A program made the position numbers and the translations under genes. The notes under the pieces are model-generated. The model was given only the letters and a program-made list of their open reading frames with translations, did not search any database and was not told the DNA's origin. A DNA stretch of 64,000 nt, taken from assembly GCF_025643595.1 (NCBI RefSeq), contig NZ_CP102826.1:2294001-2358000 (forward strand). Direction: 5' to 3'. This document shows, piece after piece, positions 54,631 to 60,821 of the stretch (positions are counted from its first letter, which is position 1; every line of letters starts with the position of its first letter). Source of the DNA: Saccharopolyspora rosea (lineage in GTDB: Bacteria > Actinomycetota > Actinomycetes > Mycobacteriales > Pseudonocardiaceae).

Positions 54631-56052
54631 ATGACGACTACTGAGCCGACGGCGAACCTCAACGGCAGCGAAAACGGGCATGCACAGCTGAGTTTGGGCA
54701 CCGCCGCGGCGCGCAACCTGTCGACGACGACCAAGACCCCGCCGCAGATGCAGGCCATCACGTCGCGGTGGCTGGTGCGGCTGCTGCCGTGGGTGCAGGC
54801 CCGCGGCGGCGCGTACCGGGTGAACCGCCGCCTGAGCTACACGCTCGGCGACGGGCGGGTGACCTTCACCAACGACGGCGCGGACGTCCGCGTGATTCCC
54901 GCGGAACTGTGCGAACTGCCGCTGCTGCGGGACTTCGACGACACCGAGGCGCTCGACGCGCTGGCCGACCGGTTCGAGCAGGCCGAGTACGAGCCGGGCG
55001 ACGTGATCGTCGAATCCGGGCAGTCGGCCGACCGCGTCGTCATCATCGCGCACGGCAAGGTGAACCAGATCGGTGCCGGCGCCTACGGCGGTCAGACGAC
55101 GCTCGGCGTGCTCGCCGACGGCGAGTTCTTCGGCGACCGGATCCTCACCGGAGAACAGGAAACCTGGGACTTCACCGCGAAAGCCGTGACCCCCTGCACG
55201 GTGGTGACGTTGTCGCGCCAGGCGTTCCAGGACGTCGCCGACCGCGCGGAATCGTTGCGGGCACAGGTCGAACGGGTGCGCAACGAGCCGCCGCGTGCGC
55301 AGAACCCGCACGGTGAGGCGGCCATCGACATCGCCTCCGGGCACGCCGGCGAACCGGACATCCCGGGAACCTTCGTCGACTACGAGGTCAAGCCGCGCGA
55401 GTACGAGCTGAGCGTGGCCCAGACGGTGCTGCGGGTGCACACCCGGGTGGCCGACCTCTACAACGAGCCGATGGACCAGGTCGAGCAGCAGTTGCGGTTG
55501 ACCATCCAGGAGTTGCGCGAGCGCCAGGAGCACGAGCTGGTCAACAACCGCGACTTCGGCCTGCTGCACAACGCCGATCTGCGCCAGCGGTTGCACACCC
55601 GGAACGGGGCGCCCACCCCGGACGACATGGACGAGCTGCTGGCGACGGTCTGGAAGGATCCGGGCTTCTTCCTGGCCCACCCGCGTGCCATCGCCGCGTT
55701 CGGCCGCGAGTGCAGCCGCCGGGGCCTGTACCCGCAGAGCGTCGACGTCGGCGGCCACCAGGTACCGGCGTGGCGCGGCGTGCCGATCTTCCCGTGCAAC
55801 AAGATCCCGGTCAGCAAGACCCGCACCACCTCGATCATGCTGATGCGCACCGGTGAGCAGAACCAGGGCGTCGTGGGCCTGCACCAGACCGGCATCCCCG
55901 ACGAGTACGAACCCGGCCTGTCCGTGCGGTTCATGGGCATCAGCGAGAAGGCCATCATCTCCTACCTGGTCAGCACCTACTTCTCCGCTGCCGTCCTGGT
56001 GCCGGACGCCCTCGGCGTGCTGGAGAGCGTGGAACTGGGCCGGGAAGGCTGA
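54631..56052 (+). CDS. Family 2B-type encapsulin shell protein with cNMP-binding domain (EshA-like), first copy
   Basis: 473 residues. N-terminal arm (about 1-85) with QLSLGTAAARNLSTTTKTPPQM and WLVRLLPWVQ, then a cyclic-nucleotide-binding domain (about 95-205, IIAHGKVNQIG, GEFFGDRILTG), then the SrpI/HK97-like shell fold (about 225-473) with TFVDYEVKPREYELSVAQTVLRVHTRV (55369-55446), NNRDFGLLHNADLRQR, FFLAHPRAIAAFGREC and RGVPIFPCNKIP. By recall this matches EshA of Streptomyces, a family 2B encapsulin. ATG 54631. First gene of a four-gene operon, 6 nt before the geosmin synthase. Confidence 0.92.
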   Translation: MTTTEPTANLNGSENGHAQLSLGTAAARNLSTTTKTPPQMQAITSRWLVRLLPWVQARGGAYRVNRRLSYTLGDGRVTFTNDGADVRVIPAELCELPLLRDFDDTEALDALADRFEQAEYEPGDVIVESGQSADRVVIIAHGKVNQIGAGAYGGQTTLGVLADGEFFGDRILTGEQETWDFTAKAVTPCTVVTLSRQAFQDVADRAESLRAQVERVRNEPPRAQNPHGEAAIDIASGHAGEPDIPGTFVDYEVKPREYELSVAQTVLRVHTRVADLYNEPMDQVEQQLRLTIQELRERQEHELVNNRDFGLLHNADLRQRLHTRNGAPTPDDMDELLATVWKDPGFFLAHPRAIAAFGRECSRRGLYPQSVDVGGHQVPAWRGVPIFPCNKIPVSKTRTTSIMLMRTGEQNQGVVGLHQTGIPDEYEPGLSVRFMGISEKAIISYLVSTYFSAAVLVPDALGVLESVELGREG

Positions 56053-56058
56053 TCCGCG

Positions 56059-59769: not shown

Positions 59770-59783
59770 CTGAGGAGATCGGT

Positions 59784-60821
59784 ATGACCACCACCGGAGC
59801 CAGGGACGCCAGCACCCCGGCGCACGAGGTCCTCGACTGGACTCGCGGACTCGTCGATCCCGCGCTGCGCACCGCCGTCGACACGCTGCCCGAGGACATG
59901 CGGCACATCGCCGGCTACCACTTCGGGTGGTGGGACGAGCGCGGACAGCCCAGGCGGGCCAGCGGGGGCAAAGCGCTGCGCGCCGCGTTGGTGCTGCTGA
60001 CCGCCGAGGCCGTGGGCGCCACGGCGTCGGCGGCCCTGCCCGCCGCGGTCGCCGTGGAGCTCGTGCACAACTTCTCGCTGCTGCACGACGACGTCATCGA
60101 CCAGGACGTCACCCGCCGCCACCGGCCGACCGCGTGGAGCGTGTTCGGCACCAGCGCCGCGATCCTCGCGGGCGACGCGCTGGTGACCCTGGCCTCCGGG
60201 GTGCTCGGCACCAGCGAGCACCCGGCCGCGCTGCGCGGCATCCGGGTGCTCAACAACTCGGTCCAGGACCTCATCCAGGGCCAGATCATGGACATCGCCT
60301 TCGAACAACGCGACGACGTCGAGCTGGCCGAGTGCCAACGCATGGCCCAGTCCAAAACCGGCGCACTGCTGGGAGCGGCCTGCGAACTCGGGACCCTCTT
60401 CGGCGACGCCGCCCCCGAACAGACCGAGCACCTGCGCGCCTTCGGCGACAAACTCGGCCTGGCCTTCCAGCACGCCGACGACCTCCTCGGCATCTGGGGA
60501 GATCCGGACGTCACCGGCAAACCCGCGTACTCGGACCTGCACGGCCGCAAGAAGACGCTGCCCGTCGTGGCGGCACTGCAGTCCGGCACCCCGGCCGGGA
60601 ACGAGCTGGCCACGCGCTACCAACGCGAGGAGCCGCTCTCGCACGCCGAACTGACCGAAGTCGCCGACCTGATCGACACCGCGGGTGGCCGCTCCTGGAG
60701 CCACGACCAGGCGAGCCGGCTGCTCACCGAAGCACGGCACCACCTGCACGCGGCGAACCCGCACGCGCGGACCGCCGAACTGGAAGCACTCGCCGACATG
60801 GTCACCGACCGCGACCACTGA
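59784..60821 (+). CDS. Polyprenyl diphosphate synthase
   Basis: 345 residues, trans-isoprenyl transferase. First Asp-rich motif LLHDDVID, second as ADDLLGIWGD, KTG and GGKALR early. Phe at -5 and Ser at -4 before the first motif, with no two-residue insertion, does not clearly predict FPP rather than a longer product. GAGGAGATC precedes the ATG, 14 nt after the second shell gene. It should supply prenyl substrate (FPP is required) to geosmin synthase. It lacks the GPTGLGT motif. Confidence 0.92.
   Translation: MTTTGARDASTPAHEVLDWTRGLVDPALRTAVDTLPEDMRHIAGYHFGWWDERGQPRRASGGKALRAALVLLTAEAVGATASAALPAAVAVELVHNFSLLHDDVIDQDVTRRHRPTAWSVFGTSAAILAGDALVTLASGVLGTSEHPAALRGIRVLNNSVQDLIQGQIMDIAFEQRDDVELAECQRMAQSKTGALLGAACELGTLFGDAAPEQTEHLRAFGDKLGLAFQHADDLLGIWGDPDVTGKPAYSDLHGRKKTLPVVAALQSGTPAGNELATRYQREEPLSHAELTEVADLIDTAGGRSWSHDQASRLLTEARHHLHAANPHARTAELEALADMVTDRDH

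Follow-up and report, generated by a model that had tools for sequence, protein, structure and literature searches.

A geosmin synthase with two candidate cargo tags between the shell genes of a Family 2B encapsulin operon in Saccharopolyspora rosea

Four genes and the geosmin synthase

The window analysed here, a stretch of 64,000 nucleotides from the genome of Saccharopolyspora rosea (G000 among the genomes compared; G and L numbers denote genomes and loci), holds four forward-strand genes at positions 54631-60821, namely those for an encapsulin shell protein (Enc1), a geosmin synthase (GS), a second shell protein (Enc2) and a polyprenyl diphosphate synthase (PT). Gaps of 6, 36 and 14 nt separate them, and the open reading frames (ORFs) are exactly as a preliminary description of this DNA had given them. 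The Enc1 stop codon (56050-56052) precedes a GTG start of GS at 56059, GS stops at 58333-58335, Enc2 extends from an ATG at 58372 to a stop at 59767-59769, and PT from an ATG at 59784 to a stop at 60819-60821. All four products score above the NCBIfam cut-offs for Family 2B shells or their terpenoid cargos. On the sequence evidence set out below, GS is likely packaged, by means of its two candidate tags, as cargo inside a mixed Enc1/Enc2 shell.

54631-56052, forward strand: Enc1, Family 2B encapsulin shell protein, 473 amino acids (NF041163; PF19307 and PF00027; PDB 9bje; TVWK)
54694-54714, forward strand: Enc1 N-arm motif LGTAAAR, residues 22-28, with the same core as the cargo tag
55645-55656, forward strand: Enc1 diagnostic motif 1, TVWK (motif according to PMC12407261)
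56059-58335, forward strand: GS, 758 amino acids, two class I terpene synthase domains (NF041168, motifs, model)
57091-57123, forward strand: interdomain candidate cargo tag GPTGLGTEAAR, residues 345-355, in the segment 337-373 with pLDDT below 50
58273-58305, forward strand: C-terminal candidate cargo tag GPTGLGTAAAR, residues 739-749, in the segment 719-758 with pLDDT below 50
58372-59769, forward strand: Enc2, Family 2B encapsulin shell protein, 465 amino acids (NF041163; PDB 9bix; RRRK)
58420-58440, forward strand: Enc2 N-arm motif LSTAAAR, residues 17-23
59371-59382, forward strand: Enc2 diagnostic motif 1, RRRK (motif according to PMC12407261)
59784-60821, forward strand: PT, 345 amino acids, with DDVID-102 and DDLLG-232 (NF041169; PDB 3nf2)

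GS matches the model NF041168 (family 2 encapsulin cargo terpene cyclase) at 1221 bits, with a cut-off of 1200, and Pfam places two Terpene_syn_C_2 stretches in it. The Asp-rich and NSE motifs, whose catalytic role in class I terpene synthases is established, are kept in both domains (DDHFLE-90 with NDIFSYQRE-234, and DDYFP-469 with NDLFSYQKE-612), and the N domain is nearest to PDB entries 5dw7 and 5dz2. Structure prediction, which the preliminary description had proposed as a check, was run for GS with AlphaFold (34 sequences) and gave a mean pLDDT (the per-residue confidence score of the model) of 84.3. Judged by its profile score, its paired motifs and this model, the protein has the make-up of a complete two-domain geosmin synthase, as had been described. 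Only two segments are listed at a pLDDT below 50, and each of them contains one of the two tags. Repeats of the form GPTGLGTSAAR, between the domains and at the C-terminus, have been reported for geosmin-synthase-like Family 2B cargo (PMC8346489). The position of these published-type tags in low-confidence segments, together with the genome-wide co-occurrence of GS and shells, supports the earlier proposal that GS is a packaged cargo.

At least one tag scoring at least 8/11 is present in 39 of 41 GS encoded next to shells and in 62 of 67 unlinked GS, as compared with 1 of 540 shuffled controls; 4 of 112 GS were left out of this count through failure of the anchor pattern, and these four have tags too. 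In G027 and G028, the four-gene order recurs, but two separate ORFs for single-domain cyclases occupy the position of GS between the shell genes (L066:6775-8879 and L064:6035-8075). The GS model matches all four of these tandem cyclases with its N-domain half; their identity to the N domain of the window GS is 35-57% (53-57% in L066 and 35-36% in L064), and each ends in a tag-like motif of its own. One tag per catalytic unit fits a role of the tag in loading.

Gene order elsewhere and the prenyl synthase

The preliminary description had proposed a genome survey for the order shell-GS-shell-PT, and had named uniqueness of that order to this strain as a point that would speak against it. A search of genome contigs with a GS alignment yielded 476 confirmed relatives, of which the best 80 were kept; the order counts describe these 80 only, and some of their flanks are shortened by contig ends. 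A shell gene lies inside the flank examined at 38 of the 80 loci and at none of the other 42. Eight loci (L172, L173, L176, L195, L219, L235, L242 and L247) have the four-gene order of the window, with 1.6-2.4 kb separating GS from the second shell gene in L195, L219 and L247. Other layouts are GS-shell-shell (nine loci, in cyanobacteria and Paraliomyxa), shell-shell-PT-GS (four), shell-GS-shell (four) and divergent ones. The same order was found in the relatives G033 (two copies), G026 and G023 (2.3 kb from GS to the second shell), and again in G658, G548 (Enc1 cut by a contig end), G507, G530 and G660. The order is thus not unique to this strain, and its occurrence in other genera led us to reject chance juxtaposition.

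In a FastTree phylogeny built from 115 GS, at least 8 changes are required to account for the distribution of the four-gene label. The window GS falls within a clade of eight GS, all from four-gene operons (local support 99), together with those of G033, G530, G507, G658, G026, Streptomyces oceani and Actinopolyspora alba, and far from the clade in which GS from 18 congeners stand together with L248, a duplicate record whose GS is identical to that of G003. A four-gene operon ancestral in its genus was therefore rejected, since the window GS groups with other genera and apart from these congeners. Of the three GS loci in G033 (L036, L037 and L038), two belong to shell operons and one stands by itself; L038 encodes a divergent GS (52%) that has lost its C-terminal tag.

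Most close relatives with a GS encode the shell pair and PT apart from it. Enc-Enc-PT is found in 20 of the 24 relatives whose GS lies outside a shell operon; it is split over contig ends in G017 and G009, and was not in the stretches fetched for G036 and G032. GS lies 6.6 kb from the shell operon in G029. In G004, counted among the 20, Enc1-Enc2 reads as broken pieces in two ORFs beside an intact PT (L142; G004:C2:2040341-2043365), possibly owing to frameshifts or assembly errors. From the named genomes in which GS has no shell gene nearby, 40 shell loci were fetched, part of all the shell loci of these genomes and drawn from 39 of the 42; PT adjoins the shell in 27 of them, and in two of these, L302 and L309, the operon also contains a cyclase gene. 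The window operon resembles a union of the two loci usually found, GS and Enc1-Enc2-PT, which by a gene-fusion-type argument suggests that the separate loci work together.

The sites at which congeners carry these two loci were compared as well. An amidohydrolase homologue adjoins GS in 18 of 19 genus loci compared (the exception is G009); its match stops short of GS by 140-222 nt in 16 of these and by 2.0 kb in L042, and covers only half of the gene in L051. At this site, G000 (L368), G020 (L369) and G019 (L370) have the amidohydrolase and no GS, and what follows in G000 and G020 is a gene that congeners carry about 2-9 kb downstream of GS. Where the genus has Enc1-Enc2-PT, G000 and G020 show PT and the flanking genes and no shells, the gap measuring about 0.7 kb (G000) and 1.0 kb (G020) as compared with about 3.6 kb in L126. 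At the thresholds used, G020 has neither GS nor shells, and G000 has the four-gene operon instead. A segment before PT in G020 (L323:9555-9641) resembles the start of the congeners' Enc1, including the N-arm motif (20 amino acids, 70% identity, E 4e-4), and is likely a remnant of a lost Enc1; in this small search with control segments, the sole equal match was a control segment overlapping the gap, and in the shell-site gap of G000 no match stood out. The amidohydrolase of G020 is closer to those of G002 and G003 (84 and 87%) than to that of G001 (73%), all three of which have GS and shells. This kinship and the Enc1-like remnant make loss the better reading for G020. Both sites being empty while PT stays suggests that shells go with GS, and that PT does not need shells.

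The window PT matches NF041169 (cargo polyprenyl transferase) at 484.1 bits over residues 13-345, above a cut-off of 450, and Pfam polyprenyl_synt covers residues 60-294; its second-best family is the geranylgeranyl diphosphate (GGPP) synthase IdsB, at 347.5 bits and below the cut-off of 475. Its nearest PDB entry is 3nf2, which we take to be S. coelicolor SCO5250. Cargo prenyltransferases have been described with a disordered N-terminus of 50-100 residues (PMC8346489), for which the window PT would have little room, as its model match begins at residue 13. Visual inspection of this PT found no GS-like tag. A second PT in the window genome (G000:C1:4409600-4410598; L322:10101-11099), at 490.7 bits also over the cargo-PT cut-off, stands alone where congeners carry Enc1-Enc2-PT, and the same holds in G020 (L323).

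These data bear on a coupled compartment, in which GS and PT would both be cargo, and farnesyl diphosphate (FPP), the geosmin precursor, would be made and cyclised in one shell. The match of PT to a cargo model, its position behind both shell genes in 20 of 24 relatives and its proximity to a shell in 27 of 40 loci of named genomes all favour such coupling. So does a 665-residue ORF beside a shell gene (L147:10017-12014), in which a PT part (419.6 bits, below cut-off) is joined to a cyclase domain with GPTGFGT near its end; this protein may be a natural PT-cyclase cargo. However, the window PT would have little room for a disordered N-terminus and has no tag recognisable by eye, PT persists without shells as the second copy of G000 and in G020, and its next-best family is a GGPP rather than an FPP synthase. 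We thus regard coupling as unlikely. Gene neighbourhood is what remains behind the earlier suggestion that PT works at the shell; PT as an obligate shell partner is not supported, and PT coupling is the weakest part of the proposal. If GS is packaged as we propose, PT would probably make precursor available from the cytosol or from the surface of the shell, and not as an obligate cargo.

Co-occurrence of geosmin synthase and shells

Among 61 genomes of relatives, with two-domain GS defined by a score over 1000 bits and shells by the model cut-off, GS is present in 29 and shells in 29, with both in 28 and neither in 31. The GS of G009 is accompanied by no more than a fragment of a shell gene where a contig ends, and G028 has shells with the two single-domain cyclases. 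In a phylum sample of 396 genomes, all 15 with GS have a shell over cut-off, while the 381 without GS include two with shells over cut-off (G208 and G293) and two with weaker matches (G434 and G442). A family sample of 220 genomes, with thresholds of E ≤ 1e-150 for GS and E ≤ 1e-60 for shells, has GS in 140 and shells in 145 (144 over cut-off), both being found in 139 and neither in 74; the best GS match is only about 1e-173 in G028 and G614, and that of G028 is a cyclase of the N-domain type. Counted by genus (n = 46), 27 have both, three a shell only, 16 neither and none GS only. The 42 named genomes that lack a shell in the vicinity of GS all have a shell match elsewhere, which is over cut-off in 40 and consists of fragments only in two.

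From this pattern, the making of geosmin inside protein compartments is likely more widespread than gene neighbourhoods reveal. Loading in trans would be frequent, since most close relatives with GS encode the shell pair and PT apart from GS, and as a general rule it seems to us plausible and somewhat favoured; the window operon would then be the united form, with unlinked tagged GS being loaded in trans elsewhere.

Several observations weigh against this interpretation. The C-terminal tag is missing in several unlinked GS, including six loci of one genus subclade. G615, a draft of about 190 contigs, has a tagged GS and no shell was found in it, while G496, G527, G534, G558, G627 and G677 of the family sample have shells without a GS match at the threshold used. 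Thirteen of the 40 shell loci fetched from named genomes have no adjoining PT. Furthermore, the Fisher values for co-occurrence take no account of relatedness. On an rpoB tree of 30 genomes from 29 genera, built on the matched frame per locus, 29 of the 30 genomes are concordant, with 6 changes required for GS and 5 for shells, and well-supported branches offer only 4 independent pairs; the shell follows GS in three of these, opposes it in none and does not differ in one (sign test, p = 0.25).

The soil odour geosmin is very widespread, and the enzyme that makes it is generally regarded as free in the cytosol. GS could indeed be free, with its joint occurrence with shells marking developmentally complex actinomycete lineages and the tag serving another role. 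GS is not near shells in most members of the genus, the interdomain tag is degraded in many Streptomyces GS, and correction for relatedness leaves little power, all of which agree with a free enzyme. On the other hand, shells occur in 27 of 27 genera with GS as compared with 3 of 19 other genera, G000 and G020 each lack both GS at its genus site and the shells at theirs, which is a separate one, and the tag motif is common to other shell-linked cyclases and to the shells themselves, which makes a free GS improbable in our judgement. Loading of 2-methylisoborneol (2-MIB) synthase by a disordered N-terminal domain has reportedly been published, and it likewise argues against a free GS.

Packaging of GS would also carry consequences. 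If GS cannot do without the shell, even where the two are unlinked, it becomes directly testable whether the operons of the large and poorly explained 'PT' class of Family 2B encode geosmin compartments, and what the EshB-like shells of Streptomyces do.

The shell pair and the tag-like N-arm

Enc1 and Enc2, two related shell proteins of viral origin, match the model NF041163 (family 2B encapsulin shell; cut-off 400) over nearly their full length, at 798.7 and 768.5 bits. Both combine an SrpI-like domain of the HK97 type (PF19307) with a cNMP_binding domain (PF00027), and a Pfam scan of the two proteins found no DNA-binding domain. The nearest PDB chains are 9bje for Enc1 and 9bix for Enc2, with homology also to the solved 9bhu. 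The residues of diagnostic motif 1 are TVWK at residue 339 of Enc1 and RRRK at residue 334 of Enc2, which are those that separate Enc1 from Enc2 in S. lydicus (PMC12407261); from this agreement we infer that 9bje and 9bix are the S. lydicus pair. Motif 2, in the luminal loop of the A-domain, reads SVDVGGHQVP in Enc1 and SVDVQGTRVT in Enc2, as compared with AVDFHGHSLP and GAELHGTDVR in S. lydicus; the contrast of GH with GT agrees and the remaining residues are mixed. A recent duplication of the shell gene was rejected, because the nearest solved paralogues and the diagnostic motifs differ. Several members of the genus, and G033, also have single Family 2B shell genes of another kind (L148-L154), which share 52-55% identity with Enc1 and Enc2 of the window and have other neighbours.

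In S. lydicus, Enc1 and Enc2 co-assemble and mix in all pairings; Enc1 alone does not assemble, whereas Enc2 alone does (PMC12407261). The window pair shares the motif 1 combination of this pair, whose structures are probably its nearest solved chains, and by homology it likely forms the mixed shell that had been proposed. Two separate homomeric shells with different cargos were left open by PMC8346489, and the assembly of S. lydicus Enc2 by itself would permit one of them; the failure of its Enc1 to assemble alone, its mixing with Enc2 in all pairings and the matching motif 1 pair in the window make separate shells decidedly improbable here. That the two proteins are instead transcription regulators of a geosmin operon, following the 'cnb' or Crp-Fnr annotation of PMC7251104 and the names of PDB entries, is hardly credible and was rejected, given the nearly full-length shell-model matches, the HK97-type domain, the shells formed by the S. 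lydicus homologues, and the accessible text of PMC12407261, which reports no cyclic nucleotide binding by the Family 2B cNMP-type domain.

How a mixed shell might recognise GS is suggested by a likeness between the tag and the shell itself. Near the N-terminus of nearly all shells examined, a stretch of the form ...LSL(G/S)TAAARNLATTTKS... is conserved, and the tag core is LGTSAAR, so that a core L-G/S-T-x-A-A-R is common to the GS tag and the shell N-arm. Of 81 shells (79 from the loci and 2 from the window), 12 were dropped because the anchor pattern failed. With a profile built from 86 distinct GS tags, the best segment of the whole shell is the N-arm in 55 of the other 69; the window Enc2 is scored as a miss through anchor failure, although its best segment is the N-arm motif. 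Column-permuted profiles, which were run on 15 shells out of the 40 that gave the observed mean, reach that mean in 1 of 300 cases.

The 11-residue tag profile was also run over 520 ORFs of shell loci (171,220 amino acids). The top matches are the cyclases of L145 and L143, followed by the PT-cyclase ORF of L147, three shells, an unrelated ORF (L125_5), and further shells mixed with unrelated ORFs. Both leading cyclases exceed the cut-off of the single-domain cargo cyclase model NF041167; the one in L143 (L143:6297-7442, 381 amino acids, 479.9 bits with a cut-off of 400) lies near a shell pair without PT and carries GPSGLGTSAAR at residue 16. A profile of the 7-residue core places shells at 37 of the top 48 positions, out of 57 shell ORFs, which are homologous and hence not independent counts. 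The score of the Enc1 form, LGTAAAR, is reached by no ORF outside shells and cyclases, and that of the Enc2 form, LSTAAAR, by several unrelated ORFs.

In S. lydicus, some subunits show the Enc1 N-arm, which there lies at the twofold pore, and no Enc2 N-arm was resolved (PMC12407261); vacant sites for an N-arm-like peptide may hence exist. This, and the shared core, led us to propose that the tag docks at the site of the shell's own N-arm. Docking there is weakened by two reports on Family 2A, in which cargo density lies at the luminal threefold axis and not at the N-arm (PMC8049743), and the N-termini are placed towards the outside (PMC8346489). We therefore present N-arm-type docking as speculative, with the odds somewhat against it. 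The encapsulin literature searched, which did not include a 2024 paper on the 2-MIB encapsulin, contained in its accessible parts no statement on the likeness of tag and N-arm.

Put together, Enc2, and Enc1 with the help of Enc2, would assemble into a T=1-like shell as the S. lydicus pair does, and the two disordered GS tags would bind it from inside, perhaps at the N-arm sites. Farnesyl diphosphate would enter through pores, and geosmin or intermediates would leave or be held. In its widest form, the proposal is that the GS tag is a copy of the shell N-arm motif, that loading uses vacant N-arm sites, and that actinobacterial GS, including the free-standing GeoA of Streptomyces, are loaded in trans into shells of Enc(-Enc)-PT loci, which would explain why the two are kept or lost jointly; taken as a whole this is a tentative idea, to which we would give about one chance in three. 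If the tag is an N-arm copy, it offers a concrete hypothesis for cargo recognition in Family 2B, and for the keeping of two shell components with different N-arm behaviour.

The window operon belongs to a kind already described, and its layout is not new, since the order Enc1-cyclase-Enc2-PT is in PMC12407261 and the repeated GS tag in PMC8346489. The former (2025) describes five two-component operon types; in its terpene cyclase/prenyltransferase (TC/PT) operons, the two shell genes can enclose the cyclase, with PT following immediately after Enc2, and diagnostic motif 1 is shared with the window. Unlike for the window, however, that type is only catalogued there, the solved pair being of the xylulose-kinase type and studied without cargo, and the word 'geosmin' does not occur in the accessible text. 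Andreas & Giessen 2021 (PMC8346489) count 165 systems with both TC and PT, and their geosmin-synthase-like Family 2B cargo resembles the window GS in having a tag between the domains and at the C-terminus; the accessible parts of that paper mention neither the likeness of tag and N-arm nor GS genomes with a shell encoded elsewhere. The geoA-cnb-cnb clusters of cyanobacteria and of myxobacteria or deltaproteobacteria (PMC7251104, PMC12224551) likewise pair one GS with two Family 2B-type shells, but their order is GS-Enc-Enc, the three-gene cluster has no PT, and the older paper, PMC7251104, calls the shells regulators and reports other arrangements in Actinobacteria. Our results go further in the co-occurrence of unlinked GS and shells, the empty GS and shell sites at which PT is kept, and the core shared by tag and N-arm motif.

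S. coelicolor is like the unlinked relatives in having a shell and PT with GS elsewhere (geoA, SCO6073), and unlike the window in having one shell, which is unlinked. Its shell gene eshB (SCO5249) presumably adjoins SCO5250. Both eshB and geoA rise in the second mycelium, with log2 values of 2.9/3.2/2.4 and 2.2/1.2/0.3 (PMC3610822).

About 1 kb downstream of the window operon, a class A beta-lactamase gene lies on the reverse strand (61855-63042), with a match to NF033103 over cut-off that begins at residue 142.

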